Positions 28,692-58,210 of a stretch of 62,562 nt of DNA are shown here, piece after piece. Source of the DNA: an uncultured Acidobacteriota bacterium (GTDB taxonomy: Bacteria > Acidobacteriota > Thermoanaerobaculia > Gp7-AA8); the NCBI GenBank assembly GCA_937870635.1, contig CALMZP010000097.1, positions 1 through 62,562 of the forward strand, in the 5' to 3' direction. The notes beneath the pieces are model-generated. The model searched no databases and had not been told where the DNA came from. It saw nothing but the letters and a program-made list of their open reading frames with translations. Positions within the stretch are counted from its first letter, which is position 1; every line of letters begins with the position of its first letter. Both the position numbers and the translations under genes were made by a program.

Positions 28692-28976
28692 ATGGCTTCC
28701 CGCGCCGGCGGCACCGATCGGGTCTCGACGAAGACGAAACTGGCCGCTGACCTCGTGGTTCTGGGGCGCGCCCTGGTGAGGGCGCGCGAAACCCGCGGCC
28801 TCAAACAGAGCGAAGTCGCCGCGATCCTCGGCCTGCCCGCTTCCTACATGTCGAAGATCGAGAACGGGACGCGCCGTCTCGACGTGATCGAGTTCGTGCG
28901 CATCGCCGAAGCGATGGGAGTCGATCCTGCGGAGATCATTCGAGCCCTGCAGAAAGATCTGACTTCTGAACGATGA
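28692..28976 (+). CDS. XRE-family helix-turn-helix regulator
   Basis: 94 residues. A Cro/CI-type HTH spans about residues 22-75: LVRARETRGLKQSEVAAILG and PASYMSKIENGTRRLDVIEF, followed by VRIAEAMGVDPAEI. It binds DNA as a dimer. Target genes are unknown; no toxin-like partner is adjacent. The last residues, TSER, and the stop codon are encoded by the first unit of a tandem repeat array that starts at 28963, so the native C-terminus may have been replaced. Confidence 0.9.
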   Translation: MASRAGGTDRVSTKTKLAADLVVLGRALVRARETRGLKQSEVAAILGLPASYMSKIENGTRRLDVIEFVRIAEAMGVDPAEIIRALQKDLTSER

Positions 28977-29157
28977 CTTCTGAACGATGACTTCTGAACG
29001 ATGAACGATGAGGTGTGAAACACTGTCATCCCGAGCGTAGCGAGGGACCTGGGCGTGCGGGGGCGCGAAGAATGAGCTTCGAGCCGCCCAACCCACCAGA
29101 TCCCTCGCTAAGCTCGGATGACACCGCTCATCGCTCACCGTTCAGAAGTCATCGTTC
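28963..29157. repeat. Nested palindromic element A (GAACGATGA arms around a GTCATCCCGAGCG hairpin)
   Basis: Left arm: three tandem 14-nt units CTTCTGAACGATGA (28963-29004) plus ACGATGA. Centre: a hairpin of about 98 nt (29025-29122), with arms GTCATCCCGAGCGTAGCGAG and CCCTCGCTAAGCTCGGATGA. Right arm: inverted words CATCGCTCACCGTTCAGAAG, then TCATCGTTC (29129-29157). Both flanking convergent genes end inside the arms with the residues SER and a TGA. Confidence 0.9.
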
Positions 29158-38567: not shown

Positions 38568-38634
38568 GCCCGTCGGTCGTACACGAGCGATGCCATGGGG
38601 TGGCTCCTGGAGACGCGTCCCTTCGGCAGACAGA

Positions 38635-38699
38635 GTGGAGCGCGGGCGACCTCGCCCGCGAAAATCGACACGGCGCGGGCGGGGTCGCCCGCGCTCCAC
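38635..38699. repeat. Inverted pair of REP-like palindromes (BIME-like)
   Basis: A plus-oriented copy (38635-38660) and a minus-oriented copy (38674-38699) face each other across 13 nt, like the bacterial interspersed mosaic elements of enterobacteria. Confidence 0.88.
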
Positions 38700-38721
38700 T
38701 GAACCCGTCAGGCTCCCCAGG

Positions 38722-42087: not shown

Positions 42088-42194
42088 CGGGAATGTTGAA
42101 TGTTCAATGTTCAATGTTGAATGTTGAATGTTGAATAGTGAGGTAATTCACCGTTCATCGTTCAACATGCAACATTCAACATTGAACATTCCCG
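42088..42194. repeat. AATGTTG-word inverted array
   Basis: The left arm is GGGAATGTTGAATGTTCAAT followed by further AATGTTG words. The right arm is inverted: AACATGCAACATTCAACATT then GAACATTCCC. The divergent space 42035-42337 between the S9 and GlnRS genes otherwise holds a small hairpin (TCCCCCAG/GGGGGA near 42261-42287) and the GlnRS -10 box TAGACT at 42323-42328. Confidence 0.85.
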
Positions 42195-44014: not shown

Positions 44015-44212
44015 ACGATTCTTTTGAACGATGAACGAACGATGAAGGCAATCAACACGTCATCCTGAGCTGCAAAGACAGCGAAGGATCTCAGAATACG
44101 CAGATTGAGATCCTTCGCCGTCTGCGCGGCTCAGGGATGACGTGGACCCGGCGCCGCACTCACCCTCGATTGCTCTCATCGTTCATCGTTCAAAAGCATC
44201 GTTCGTTCAAAG
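44010..44212. repeat. Nested palindromic element B (GAACGATGA arms around a CGTCATCCTGAG hairpin)
   Basis: Left arm words ATGAACGATT, TTTTGAACGATGAACGAACG (44010-44047). Centre hairpin (44056-44144) with arms CACGTCATCCTGAGCTGC and the inverted GGCTCAGGGATGACGTG. Right arm words CATCGTTCATCGTTCAAAAG and CATCGTTCGTTCAAAG (44178-44212). It lies between the convergent glnS and small membrane protein genes. Confidence 0.9.
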
Positions 44213-45421: not shown

Positions 45422-45513
45422 GATTTTGGATTTTAGATTTTGGATTTTGGATTGGATCAGCGCGCCAGCGATGTAGGCGCAAGCAATCCAAAATCCAAAA
45501 TCCAAAATCCAAG
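45422..45513. repeat. AATCCAAAATC-word inverted array
   Basis: Left: GATTTTGGATTTTAGATTTT followed by GGATTTTGG. Right: CAATCCAAAATCCAAAATCC. They flank a 27-nt centre. The rest of the 371-nt gap 45418-45788 holds a GGTCGAA triplet array near 45640-45659, a half copy of the GCTGCCGCACTCCA palindrome near 45570-45584, and no gene. Confidence 0.85.
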
Positions 45514-45788: not shown

Positions 45789-47387
45789 ATGGCCGAAGAA
45801 GTCTTGGCGACTGACAAACATCCTCGCGGCTTGTATGTGCTGTTCGGGACGGAGATGTGGGAGCGATTCAGCTTCTACACCGTCAACGCCATGCTGGCGC
45901 TGTACCTCCGCGATTCAGTGCAGGGTTTCAGTTTTTCGAGTGCGCAGGCAGCCACGGTTCAGTCGTGGTACCTGATGTTCGTTTACTTCACCCCGCTGAT
46001 CGGCGGTCTCATCGCCGATCTCTTCCTCGGATTCCGGAAGGCGATCATCGTGGGCGGCGTCTTCTTCATCGCCGGCCATGCCCTGCTCGCCGTTCCCGAC
46101 AACCTGATGATCGTGTACGCCGCGCTGGCGTGTCTCGTCATCGGAAACGGTTTCTTCAAACCGAACGTGTCCTCGATGGTTGGGAACCTCTACAGCGAGG
46201 GAAGCCACCTGAAGGACAAGGCGTATCTGATTTTCTACATGGGCATCAACGTCGGCGCCGCGCTGGCTCCGATCGTCGCCGGGTTCATTCAGCCACGCTG
46301 GGGCTTCCACCCGGCATTCTTCATGGGCGCCCTCGGCATGTTGATCTCCATGGCGCTCTTCATGACGAACCGGCGTCACGTCGCTCATGCGGACCGCATC
46401 CGCGGCAAGAAGAACGACTTCATGCGTCAGGACGGCTCGCACGGCCATCAGGACGCCGTGGCCACGTCCGAGGATCTGCCGCCGGTGCTGAATGAAGAAG
46501 CGCGCAACATGCAGGCCGTTCCGGAATGGAAGCGGATCATGGCGCTGATCGTCATCTTCATCATCGTCATCGTGTTCTGGATGATCTTCCACCAGAACAG
46601 CCTTACGCTCACGTTCTGGGCGGACGACCACACCGAGTGGACCTTTATCCGCGCCGGCGGCATTCTCTCCAACGCCATCAACGCCATCTGGATTGTGGTC
46701 CTCTCGCTGCCGCTGGCCGGCTTCTGGACGTGGCTGGACAAGCGGGGCATGGAGCCGTCCACGCCGACGAAGATGATGTACGGGATGATCCTCACCGGCC
46801 TTTCGATGATCGTTCTGTATTTCGCCGCACAGAGCCACGGATACACCGCTCCCGTTTTCCGCGTGGAGAAAGTCGATCAGGCAGGGACGTGGGTCTCGAT
46901 CTCGCCCGAGGCGCGCGAGCATCTCGGAATTGCGATTCCGCCGACGAGCATCGAGGTTCAGAAGAGCGACACGACCGTGTCGCTCGAGGCGTGGCGCGTG
47001 AATCACAGCGGGCCGACGCCGAAACCGGGCGACTTCGTCCGCATCGACGGCCACGACGCGACGCAGATCAGCACCGGGCAGACGACAAAGGCCTCCCTGT
47101 GGTGGCTCATCCTCATGTACGGCGTCATCTCCCTCGGTGAGCTCATGCTGAGCCCCATGGGCCTGGCTCTCGTCTCCAAGGTAGCGCCGGTGCGCATGCG
47201 CGGACTGATGATGGGCGGCTGGTTCACCGCCACGGCAATCGGCAACAAGCTCACTGCGATCGGCGGTTACTGGGATCTGTGGAGCCACACGAAGTTCTTC
47301 ATGGTGCTCGCCCTGATGGCGTTCGCCACGGCCGTCGTGTTGTTCCTGCTCCTCCGTCCGTTGCGGAAGGCGATGCCCGGGGTCTGA
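45789..47387 (+). CDS. POT-family (PTR2) proton-coupled oligopeptide transporter with extra domain
   Basis: 532 residues. The POT signatures are clear: GTEMWERFSFYTVNAMLALY (ExxER-type helix 1 motif) and the PTR2 segment FYMGINVGAALAPIVAGF. It imports di- and tripeptides with protons. An insertion of roughly 90 residues after TM 9-10 (PVFRVEKVDQAGTWVSISPE to KPGDFVRIDGHDATQI) is soluble and unlike the core. The ATG at 45789 follows GGGAGAG. The stop overlaps the murB start by one base. Confidence 0.9.
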   Translation: MAEEVLATDKHPRGLYVLFGTEMWERFSFYTVNAMLALYLRDSVQGFSFSSAQAATVQSWYLMFVYFTPLIGGLIADLFLGFRKAIIVGGVFFIAGHALLAVPDNLMIVYAALACLVIGNGFFKPNVSSMVGNLYSEGSHLKDKAYLIFYMGINVGAALAPIVAGFIQPRWGFHPAFFMGALGMLISMALFMTNRRHVAHADRIRGKKNDFMRQDGSHGHQDAVATSEDLPPVLNEEARNMQAVPEWKRIMALIVIFIIVIVFWMIFHQNSLTLTFWADDHTEWTFIRAGGILSNAINAIWIVVLSLPLAGFWTWLDKRGMEPSTPTKMMYGMILTGLSMIVLYFAAQSHGYTAPVFRVEKVDQAGTWVSISPEAREHLGIAIPPTSIEVQKSDTTVSLEAWRVNHSGPTPKPGDFVRIDGHDATQISTGQTTKASLWWLILMYGVISLGELMLSPMGLALVSKVAPVRMRGLMMGGWFTATAIGNKLTAIGGYWDLWSHTKFFMVLALMAFATAVVLFLLLRPLRKAMPGV

Positions 47388-48460
47388 TGGCGGAGCCCAG
47401 GGTCCGGGAGAACGTACCGCTCGCACCGCTCACGACGATCGGGATCGGCGGTCCGGCCCGGTACTTCATCACGGCGGCGACAGTCGACGAATTGGGCGAG
47501 GCCCTTGACTGGGCCTCGCAGCGTTCACTGCCGGTATTCGTCCTCGGCGGCGGCAGCAACCTTCTCATCTCGGATGAGGGTTTTTCAGGCCTCGTCATCC
47601 AGATCGGCCTCCGCGGGGTGGTCGTGGAGAGCGAGGACCGTTACGCTACGGTGAAGGTCGCGGCGGCCGAACCGTGGGATTCGTTCGTGGAGACCGCGAC
47701 CGGCAAGGGATGGGCGGGGGTCGAGTGCCTCTCCGGCATACCAGGATCGACGGGAGCGACACCGATTCAGAACGTCGGCGCCTATGGTCAGGATGTGAGC
47801 GAGACGATCGTGCGCGTGGAAACGCTGGATCGGATGACCGGGCGCGTCGTACCGTTCACGAATGCCGAATGCCAGTTCGGCTATCGCGCCAGCCGTTTCA
47901 AGAATCACGAGCCCGGGCGTTACGTCGTTCTCAATGTGACCTTTCGGCTGGAGCGCGGAGGATCAGCGTCCATACGCTATCCCGAGCTGCAGAAGTATCT
48001 CGACGAGCACGAGGTCGCGGTCGCCGACCTGGCCAGCGTTCGAAAAGCGGTCATTGCGATCCGGAAGAGGAAGGGAATGGTCATCGACCCGTCCGATCCC
48101 GATACCCGCAGCGACGGCTCCTTTTTCATGAATCCGGTCATTCGCGCGGACGAGCTGGGGGAATTCGGCGGCCCTTCGTTCCCCGCGGGCGACGGTCTCG
48201 TTAAGCTTTCAGCGGCGTGGCTGATCGAGAACGCCGGATTCACGAAAGGCTACCGGCACGGCAACGTCGGCCTGTCTTCCAAGCACTCGCTGGCAATCAT
48301 CAATCGCGGCGGCGGCACGGCGGCGGAGGTGCGGGAGCTGGTGGAGTTGATTCAGTCGCGTGTGCGCGAACGCTTCGGAGTGGAGCTGCAGCCGGAGCCG
48401 AACTTCATCGGATTTGGTGCGAACGAACGATGGGCGATGGTTTGGAACGATGAACGATGA
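47387..48460 (+). CDS. murB: UDP-N-acetylmuramate dehydrogenase (MurB)
   Basis: 357 residues. FAD- and NADPH-dependent reduction of UDP-GlcNAc-enolpyruvate to UDP-MurNAc. FAD-binding LGGGSNLLISDEGF, the GSTGATPIQNVGAYGQ loop, the YRASRFK motif of type I enzymes, and the proton-donor region SDGSFFMNPV are all present. The ATG overlaps the transporter stop (TGATG), an unusual partner for murB, which normally sits in the division cluster. The last residues, WNDER, and the stop come from the GAACGATGA array. Confidence 0.95.
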   Translation: MAEPRVRENVPLAPLTTIGIGGPARYFITAATVDELGEALDWASQRSLPVFVLGGGSNLLISDEGFSGLVIQIGLRGVVVESEDRYATVKVAAAEPWDSFVETATGKGWAGVECLSGIPGSTGATPIQNVGAYGQDVSETIVRVETLDRMTGRVVPFTNAECQFGYRASRFKNHEPGRYVVLNVTFRLERGGSASIRYPELQKYLDEHEVAVADLASVRKAVIAIRKRKGMVIDPSDPDTRSDGSFFMNPVIRADELGEFGGPSFPAGDGLVKLSAAWLIENAGFTKGYRHGNVGLSSKHSLAIINRGGGTAAEVRELVELIQSRVRERFGVELQPEPNFIGFGANERWAMVWNDER

Positions 48461-48653
48461 ACGATGAACGATGAAGGTACCGAAGTCCAAGCCACGTGAT
48501 CCTGAGCCGCGAAGACAGCGAAGGATCTCAGGCTGTGTAACTTGAGATCCTTCGCCGTCTTCGCGGCTCAGGATGACGTGTTGCTCCATGCTTTGTTCGT
48601 TCATCGTTCATCGTTCATCGCTCATCGTTCATCGTTCATCGCTCATCGTTCAA
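48445..48653. repeat. Nested palindromic element C (longest GAACGATGA arms)
   Basis: Left arm: four tandem GAACGAT-type words (48445-48477). Centre: hairpin 48493-48580 with arms CACGTGATCCTGAGCCGCGA and CGCGGCTCAGGATGACGTG. Right arm: seven or more ATCGTTC words (48594-48653), including CATCGCTCATCGTTC variants. murB and the PilZ gene both end within it. Confidence 0.92.
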
Positions 48654-49327
48654 ATATCCGTCCGCATGCGGTCGAAGACTCGCGAGATCGTCTGGATGTC
48701 GATGCTTCGCTCGAGGTACTCCCACACGGCCAGGACTTCCTCACGGTTGCGGATCGATTCGATCTCGATGTTCGACGCGCCGTGCGTGATGGCGTACTTG
48801 GCTCGGTGATACCACTTCTGCGCTTCATCGGGGTTGGCCAGGAGCCTTTCGCGAGCGTGCTGCACGAGGAGCACCTGATCCGGGGGGATGTCCTCGCTCG
48901 ATGAAGGGAGGGTGCGTACGCCGGAACGGTTCTTCTCGGCCATGCGCTCGACGAGGCGGCGCCGTTTCCGCTCGAGCGTGTCGGCCTCGCGCTTCATCGC
49001 GCCGCTCTTGATGAGCAGGTGGAGGGCGAGCGCGTATTCCGCGTTTCCGCTCTCGATGCGCAGACCCGACCGGTAAACCTGCGCGCCGTCCGCCCCGGGG
49101 GTCTTCGAAAGACGGCTCCAGATGAGGAAGCCCTTGACGTCGACGGCGATGTCGCCGCGGCGGATCATGAACCGTCCCACCGTGCCGAGACGGATGGGTG
49201 CAGGATGCTCGACCAGCGCTCCGATGGTGCTCAGATTGACGATGGCAATCGGATACGCGGCAAATGTGGCGGGGAGTGGCTCGGACGCTGTGAACCGTTC
49301 CGCCGCCCGGAGCTCTTCGACGTTCAT
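48650..49327 (-). CDS. PilZ-domain protein
   Basis: 225 residues. Residues 10-95 resemble a PilZ fold (ERFTASEPLPATF, AIVNLSTIGALVEHPAPIRL, GFLIWSR and YRSGLRI), although the canonical RxxxR and D/NxSxxG residues for c-di-GMP are altered (NLSTIG is present). The C-terminal half is a charged helical domain of unknown type. Start ATG at 49327. The stop codon TGA is the first base triplet of the repeat arm. Confidence 0.72.
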   Translation of the reverse strand: MNVEELRAAERFTASEPLPATFAAYPIAIVNLSTIGALVEHPAPIRLGTVGRFMIRRGDIAVDVKGFLIWSRLSKTPGADGAQVYRSGLRIESGNAEYALALHLLIKSGAMKREADTLERKRRRLVERMAEKNRSGVRTLPSSSEDIPPDQVLLVQHARERLLANPDEAQKWYHRAKYAITHGASNIEIESIRNREEVLAVWEYLERSIDIQTISRVFDRMRTDI

Positions 49328-52060: not shown

Positions 52061-52095
52061 GGATGGAGTGCGGCAGCAGCTGCCGCACTCCATCC
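52061..52095. repeat. Perfect 17-bp-arm palindrome GGATGGAGTGCGGCAGC
   Basis: Two 17-nt arms, identical as inverted repeats, lie around a single A. Copy 2 of the family at 36227-36254. It sits immediately before the TAATAC box of the hexosaminidase. Confidence 0.92.
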
Positions 52096-53385: not shown

Positions 53386-53552
53386 TGAGTGCTTGGTGCT
53401 TGGTGCTGAGCCATTGGTTCACGTCATCCTGAGGCGCGGAGACGCCGAAGGATCTCAAGTTGCCAGACTTTCGCATCTCGAGATCCTTCGCCGCGCTTCG
53501 CCGGCTCAGGATGACGTGAACTATTGACCCAGCACCCAGCACCCAGCACTCG
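53386..53552. repeat. Nested palindromic element D (GTGCTTG arms around a CGTCATCCTGAG hairpin)
   Basis: Left arm GAGTGCTTGGTGCTTGGTGC; right arm CAGCACCCAGCACCCAGCAC; inner hairpin 53419-53519 with CACGTCATCCTGAGGCGC and GGCTCAGGATGACGTGA. The architecture is the same as elements A-C but the outer word differs. Confidence 0.9.
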
Positions 53553-58101: not shown

Positions 58102-58210
58102 GCATCCCGAGCGAAGCGAGGGATCTCCGGTACCACCGGCAGGGACCATCCGCATGGTGGCAGGAGGCATCCTGCCGGTGCTTCCGGAGATCCCTCGCTT
58201 CGCTCGGGAT
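58102..58210. repeat. GCATCCCGAGCGAAGCGAGG hairpin
   Basis: Arms GCATCCCGAGCGAAGCGAGG and CCCTCGCTTCGCTCGGGAT flank a second inverted pair (TCTCCGGTACCACCGGCAGG and CCTGCCGGTGCTTCCGGAGA). Total about 109 nt, and one of the best-paired elements in the window. Confidence 0.92.

Follow-up and report, generated by a model that had tools for sequence, protein, structure and literature searches.

An element between two convergent genes

The 62,562-nucleotide stretch of DNA analyzed here (the window) corresponds to contig C97 in a 4.52-Mb, 171-contig MAG of an uncultured Acidobacteriota. At positions 48421-48653, between murB and a convergent gene on the opposite strand, this window holds a two-part hairpin of about 230 bases. 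The locus raises the question of what kind of element this is, how such elements arose, and why this one adjoins two stop codons. The reading that we favor, with a probability of about 0.6, is that two dispersed palindromic DNA elements, both non-autonomous, are combined here, with the second sitting in the loop of the first, and that they spread by copying and were kept beside stops. The outer one would consist of two tandem arrays of a short word that are inverted relative to each other and have defined ends, and the inner one would be a head-to-head REP dimer of the CGTC type.

The successive 9-letter words GAACGATGA shared a two-base overlap, and the true repeat unit was the heptamer GAACGAT. 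The left outer array (48445-48475, plus strand) consisted of (GAACGAT)4 plus GAA and was recovered by TRF with period 7 and 4.4 copies at 100%. The right outer array (48595-48652, minus strand) had the opposite orientation to the left array and contained about eight ATCGTTC/ATCGCTC units (TRF at 48597-48652: 8.0 units, 91% match), two of which were the variant GAGCGAT. The initial annotation described more than ten flanking words; there were nine exact copies of GAACGATGA (four on the left, five on the right), and the count exceeds ten only with the two GAGCGAT variants. It also placed the element at 48445-48653, and the sequence there was as described, but both arms reached further: in the predicted fold, degenerate units from 48421 paired with the extreme right end. 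This left extension (GAACGAACGATGGGCGATGGTTTG, 48421-48444, plus strand) also codes for part of an extra murB C-terminus.

Inside the arrays, the sequence showed a left spacer (48476-48492), whose similarity to the spacers of other GAACGAT elements was only partial, and a right spacer (48581-48594). Between the spacers were the two REP units, which an inverted-repeat search recovered as arms of 38 nt each that were 95% complementary and separated by a 12-nt loop (48531-48542). The left unit (48493-48530, plus strand) carried a CGTG variant of the CGTC tag and formed its own stem-loop, and the right unit (48543-48580, minus strand) was CGTC tagged and head-to-head with the left one. The whole element was predicted to fold into one long stem as RNA (-162.9 kcal/mol, z of -20.5 versus shuffles) and also folded as DNA (-95.2 kcal/mol, z of -17.9). 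Because GAACGATGA occurred 22 times in the window versus an expected 1.04, and because of these fold z-scores, a chance origin of the element was excluded. No Rfam family matched anywhere in the window. The element was indeed the largest nested one among the GAACGAT elements of the window, as had been claimed, but a nested element of 330 bp was found elsewhere in the genome (L070, 5432-5761).

The upstream gene (47279-48460, plus strand) was an open reading frame with MurB_C and FAD_binding_4 domains. Its stop codon was inside the left array, where the C-terminus read V-W-N-D-E-R-stop, in agreement with the initial annotation. Matches to murB orthologs ended at about residue 377 to 386 of 393, before position 48421. 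The opposite gene (48650-49327, minus strand), which is a conserved neighbor of murB in the family, used a TGA at 48650-48652 that was the outermost triplet of the right array. That part of the earlier description stood, whereas the naming of this gene as PilZ was not confirmed, with no Pfam PilZ match found even at E = 5.

The relatives used for the murB comparison were MAGs labeled Acidobacteria or Thermoanaerobaculia, none of the same genus as the host, and nearly all of the genomes compared were draft assemblies in which array lengths may be undercounted. In other genera, the murB junction contained heptamer arrays of other words (L020 and L024), octamer arrays (L018), REP-like hairpins (L022 and L032), or nothing. 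Based on this comparison with genera at about 67% murB identity, murB probably lost its original stop to an insertion at the site, and the stops of both convergent genes are now supplied by the array. We also observed inverted AGAGTTA arrays shortly after murB in a genome from another family of the same class (L053, G052), which suggests, from the sequence, that the array class reaches beyond the family of the host.

The inner hairpin

The inner arms belonged to a family with 103 arm matches in the host genome and the consensus CGTCATCCTGAGCCGCGAAGACGGCGAAGGATCTC. Thirty-nine arms aligned without gaps; 37 of them started with CGTC, and the other two, including the left arm in the window (CGTG), were one base off. 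The proposed stem had nine pairs, the first two being A-U and U-A in the majority, and was interrupted by a 2x2 internal loop; the first pair was broken in 11 of 24 distinct rows. The stem was formed in 93% of cells versus 83% in shuffled data. Four of the nine pairs changed on both sides, with 23 two-sided cells versus 6.2 in shuffles, and shifting the stem partners along destroyed this signal. The loop was 6 nt in the structure tested.

CGTC-tagged REPs are short palindromes with an unpaired CGTC (or TGTC/CCTC) at one end, a stem of 8 to 9 bp with A-T in the first two pairs, and a loop of 4 to 5 nt, with other lengths in a few species (Di Nocera et al. 2013, PMC3733652). They occur mainly as head-to-head dimers at gene 3' ends, are not associated with a transposase gene, and have been reported from five phyla, Acidobacteria not among them (PMC3733652). 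The inner hairpin resembled them in its CGTC tag (TGTC in a second REP family), head-to-head dimers, location at gene 3' ends, and absence of an attached transposase, and to some extent in its stem, of which the first two pairs were A-T in the majority. It differed in the internal loop of the stem, in the 6-nt loop, and in having CTC instead of CCA after the stem. Because of the 6-nt loop, we call the hairpin CGTC type and do not place it with certainty in any of the four published families. A search of the open-licence literature with the REP sequence string returned no relevant paper.

The REP family was common in four of the relatives (G002, G006, G008, and G010), sparse in four others (G001, G007, G011, and G014), and not found in G003, G004, G005, G009, G013, or G015. 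At the one REP site compared with G014, the match extended over one flank only. In the sampled host loci, there were 45 inverted REP pairs, a few of which were of the second REP type. A hairpin of this second type also occurred in the window without heptamer arms, as a near-perfect hairpin of 107 bp at 58104-58210 (ATCCCGAGCGAAGCGAGGGATCT).

Outer words and inner hairpins as separate modules

The initial annotation proposed that outer words and inner hairpins combine freely, like modules. The window itself contained several combinations. At 44021-44209, GAACGAT arms enclosed the REP dimer family also seen in the murB-site element, and GAACGAT/TGACTTC arms enclosed a different REP, of the GTCATCCCGAGC type, at 28960-29157, as read from the sequence. 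Other elements were one with GAATGTT/CAATGTT arms and a short interior at 42092-42191 (from the sequence), one with GGATTTT arms and a bare loop at 45422-45512 (from TRF and the array listing), and an ACCGTTA array palindrome without any loop at 831-863 (from the array listing). In addition, a REP dimer was located between two different heptamer arrays, GTGCTTG on the left and ACCCAGC on the right, at 53389-53549 (from TRF and the REP listing).

Across the genome, words and hairpins did recombine, and modularity was borne out: the same REP dimer was found inside at least five words (AACCGTT, AACGATG, AAGGATG, AAGGTCC, and AAGCACC), and AACGATG and AAGGATG each enclosed two different REP families. 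The combination was not free, however, as some words never held a REP. Interiors were bare loops in 24 of 24 classified elements with AAAATCC (15 bare), AACATTC (7 bare), or AACATTG arms, whereas 24 of 28 interiors of AACCGTT, AACGATG, and AAGGATG elements were REP or GC hairpins (Fisher p = 5e-11). Specifically, AACCGTT elements contained either a REP (12) or a GC hairpin (1), with 1 bare loop; AACGATG elements contained 6 REPs and 3 bare loops, not counting the element at 28960 in the window, whose REP is of the second family; and AAGGATG elements contained 4 REPs and 1 member of the second REP family. The AAGGTCC interiors were 5 bare, 2 REP, and 4 other. The REP-bearing loci were partly gathered by a REP search, which inflates their number but not the zeros for AAAATCC and AACATTC.

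Each module also occurred by itself. Ten of the 45 REP dimers in the host had no array within 200 bp, and in G006 this was true of 17 of 18 dimers at a distance of 250 bp, the exception having a two-unit octamer 137 bp away. Conversely, arrays without any hairpin were also found. One GAACGAT element (L080, 3017-3088) enclosed a 17-bp stub, CACGTCAGGATGACGTG, that was apparently a collapsed REP dimer. The window also contained a long GC hairpin palindrome at 38634-38700 (AGTGGAGCGCGGGCGACC...), of a type that was seen inside an AACCGTT element as well (L076, 1857-2101), and a perfect 35-bp palindrome at 52061-52095.

Heptamer arrays across the genome

Arrays were surveyed in 654 kb of the host genome. 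Besides the window, this covered two long contigs and up to 20 kb from the start of each of 25 further contigs; several of the contigs had been picked for holding GAACGAT. This sample contained 153 period-7 runs of at least 11, versus 0 in block shuffles, and only 2 runs of period 8 and 6 of period 9. About a dozen words dominated, with counts of 32 for AAAATCC, 22 for AACGATG, 21 for AACCGTT, 19 each for AACATTC and AAGGTCC, and 14 for ACCCTGG. The polarity of inverted pairs was fixed for AAAATCC (15/15), AACCGTT (8/8), AACGATG (8/8), and AAGGTCC (6/6); AACATTC, at 7 to 2, was the exception. Array edges were fixed in phase as well, with GATTTT outside and GGATT inside in the case of AAAATCC (chi-square p from 2e-10 to 2e-4), and GGATTTT arrays with the same edges were present in distant Acidobacteriota. 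The probe GATTTTGGATTTTGGATTTTGG for GATTTTG arrays had 361 matches in the host genome, a number in which overlapping matches within one array are counted apart, 0 matches in five genomes of the same family, and 1 to 4 matches in nine other genomes of 297. GAACGAT arrays were common to the host and G011 (38 matches) and rare elsewhere. Six stretches of G011 (L152 and L217 to L221) carried inverted tandem arrays of period 9 (ATGGGACCT and GATGGGACG) instead of period 7, and arrays in G009 had period 8, so a strict heptamer rule was ruled out as a general one.

These observations bear on a local origin, in which array pairs grow in place by slippage on a hairpin plus template switching between arms, the period reflects the polymerase footprint, and only the REP dimer was transposed. 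A polymerase footprint has been proposed as the cause of the heptamer period for heptanucleotide repeats in general, and in many bacteria no long simple repeats are as common as heptamers, for which slippage has been proposed (PMC4679880, PMC4692102). One element (L093, 5668-5770) had unit orders that mirrored each other perfectly between its arms, which is expected of arm-to-arm copying; many loops were unrelated; and sister species carried different words at the same site. Against local growth, the dozen words that make up most arrays recurred at many loci (well over a hundred for one word), the edges were fixed in phase, imperfect unit orders were common to different loci and genera, relatives had periods of 8 or 9, and empty sites contained no seed. 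We consider an exclusively local origin unlikely.

Shared unit order and differing words in sister species

A 30-mer with a variant second unit, AAGGATG-AAGGCGG-AAGGATG-AAGGATG-AA, was found exactly at unlinked loci of the host (L008 and both arms of L096), as well as in G013 and G004. The loops of three AAACCAG elements in G013 were homologous, one of them reversed. AACCGTT elements had an AGCGTAA spacer beside the left array, and some also had a common right spacer (GATGTGATAGGCG), in both orientations; one kept the spacer but carried a GC hairpin instead of a REP. Most loops of elements with the same word were not visibly homologous, and this weakened the case for copying of whole units for words like GGATTTT.

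Three congeneric species (G004, G013, and G017) were used for comparison of sites, with gene identities at the ribosomal-protein sites assigned by Pfam. Between rpsQ and rplN, there was a GAAGGAT pair in G004, a GGTTGTC pair at the same position in G013, and an empty site in G017. Between rplN and rplX, G004 had a 55-bp insert of the GGGTGTC type for which G013 and G017 had the exact empty site. At a site with a sigma-factor gene on one side and a gene for a zinc-finger, likely anti-sigma, protein on the other, we found AGAGATC arrays in G004, octamer AGTRGATY arrays in G017, and nothing in G013. In a longer syntenic stretch (contig C2 of G004 and contig C179 of G013), one element was common and had the same word, the words differed at one or two sites, four G013 elements were absent from G004, and one G004 insert had an exact empty site in G013. 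The comparison was unrooted as to gain or loss. No clear target duplication was present at exact empty sites, only an ambiguous 2 bp at most, whereas MITEs, the terminal-inverted-repeat elements of DDE transposases, duplicate their target on insertion. A change of repeat word between sister species at the same spot was not found in open-licence papers, although a description published elsewhere may have been missed.

Because different loci and genera had unit orders in common, edges were fixed in phase, and the same site was filled, empty, or taken by another word among sister species, dispersal is the preferred explanation for some of the words at least. At the sequence level, the composite, dispersed reading draws together modules that occur apart and combined, mostly fixed polarity and edges, recurring unit orders, loops, and spacers, presence/absence and word swaps, and placement at stop codons. 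Array units may have spread by a mechanism that copies hairpin DNA, and a Y1/HUH-type single-strand transposase acting in trans is the leading candidate. REP dimers would have inserted into the loop that some array hairpins expose, copying from arm to arm together with slippage would keep the arrays perfect and alter their length, and purifying selection would retain arrays near stop codons. A bolder version, which is tentative at best, treats the array-armed palindromes as a distinct mobile class in which sites are repopulated with other words from a lineage-private lexicon and an unrecognised enzyme copies arrays of about 30 nt with defined ends. The reuse of sites may be no more frequent than chance: there are few spacers next to stop codons, and selection by itself could steer insertions to them. 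Hundreds of elements in one genome, together with congeneric empty sites, offer a natural test bed for the spread of repeats and for the nesting of REPs in palindromes.

Placement beside stop codons and possible functions

Placement was determined with our own gene finder, whose predicted starts were the longest possible, so that distances to 5' gene ends are rough. Sixty of 66 placeable inverted elements were outside genes, though 88% of the sample was coding. These 60 elements were in co-directional (40), convergent (15), and divergent (5) junctions. The junctions of at least 30 bp numbered 164 co-directional, 78 convergent, and 70 divergent; thus, the elements shunned divergent junctions (p = 0.013, convergent plus co-directional versus divergent). 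A stop codon was within 25 nt of the array edge at 50 of 70 facing gene 3' ends, versus 12 of 52 gene ends of the 5' kind. The best reading is that both kinds of palindrome are tolerated next to stop codons.

A different explanation for this placement is that the element is a bidirectional terminator selected to end transcription of murB and the opposite gene. The element at 48421-48653 is a very stable hairpin that lies between convergent genes and adjoins both stop codons, and the initial annotation called for a test of whether it ends transcription from both sides. For intrinsic termination, this role was not supported. The murB-site element had no terminator-like site and, unlike an intrinsic terminator, no U-tract following its stem, and T-rich tails were found at 4 of 136 element ends versus 2.7% of random intergenic positions, which is no enrichment. 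In addition, the 40 of 60 elements between co-directional genes did not fit with this role, nor did the arrays of a relative, which occupied spacers of a ribosomal-protein operon (between rpsQ, rplN, and rplX) as well as the spacer that separates the sigma-factor and zinc-finger genes. Judged from the sequence, intrinsic termination by the element is unlikely, Rho-dependent or partial termination may occur, and we regard the terminator explanation as a whole as improbable. As modeled, the element would form a very stable 3' stem-loop on either RNA, and it is more likely that it acts on the stability of the mRNA 3' end or on post-termination events than on termination itself. By likeness to REPs, for which effects on mRNA ends and translation have been discussed (PMC12306157), a 3'-terminal RNA stem of this length, lying no more than about 15 nt from the stop codons, could affect mRNA end stability or translation.

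It is also conceivable, though very improbable, that the arrays are kept as multi-frame translation stops, since GAACGAT, GAATGTT, and GAAGGAT, when read inward, give TGA in every frame. In each arm of the murB-site element, every one of the three inward frames had stops but no outward frame did, and both flanking genes used these stops. However, the commonest word, GGATTTT, and also GGACCTT were free of stops in both directions and yet had the same fixed polarity and placement. Because GGATTTT contains no stop, inward stops are not the general reason for the polarity. G-quadruplex formation was likewise rejected as a general cause, since GAACGAT has no G-run.

Comparison with known repeats and transposases

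Heptamer repeats have previously been explained by slippage or quadruplex formation, and several of the words described here are without G-runs. One close comparison is with the GGGAATC heptamers of Xanthomonas, which are mostly arrays of four units, occur as inverted (convergent) pairs, 70 in one genome and 75 in another, and are intergenic and near stop codons (PMC4692102). They consist of one G-rich word that has been read as a G-quadruplex, and 83% were kept in place between two species (PMC4692102). The arrays of the host were also inverted heptamer pairs of fixed polarity near stop codons, but they comprised about 12 words, several without G-runs, and showed exchange of words between sister species and nested REPs. 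Cyanobacterial STRR and Beggiatoaceae TAACTGA repeats are intergenic heptanucleotide tandem arrays scattered among genomes; the TAACTGA repeats are direct and upstream of start codons, with one inverted case reported (PMC4679880). The host arrays were likewise intergenic period-7 tandem arrays but formed inverted pairs beside stops.

Nesting of REPs has been described before: Anabaena variabilis and H. neapolitanus have REP dimers inserted inside longer palindromes, and T. roseum has REPs inside small ones (PMC3733652). In the present case, the enclosing palindromes were arrays of tandem words, and they also existed without REPs. The inner hairpin resembled REPINs, in which two inverted REPs form a hairpin that is dispersed and non-autonomous and depends on RAYT transposases (PMC3116915), in being two inverted REPs that are dispersed and non-autonomous; it differed in that no cognate transposase flanked by the murB-site REP was found.

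We found no transposase linked to the arrays. The genome contained three Y1 transposase genes, none flanked by the murB-site REP family, and a Y1 transposase was rejected as the partner of this REP, although a gene may have been missed in the fragmented assembly. One of the three, on contig C170 (L134, G000:C170:22952-26269), had its own, different terminal repeats, with a long inverted repeat (GAGGGTCACGTCTGCACTTCGCACTTTC) on its two sides. This arrangement, a Y1 gene between long terminal repeats, is of a known kind (PMC3733652). Sixteen further, near-identical inverted pairs of this repeat were found elsewhere, with arms 39 to 80 bp apart from start to start (e.g., L222, L224, L226, L075 at 15636, and L065 at 11121). 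The C170 gene and the 16 pairs make up a clean transposase plus miniature-element family of probably recent origin, and most of the miniature pairs that were read began at or beside a stop codon (TTTGAGGG).
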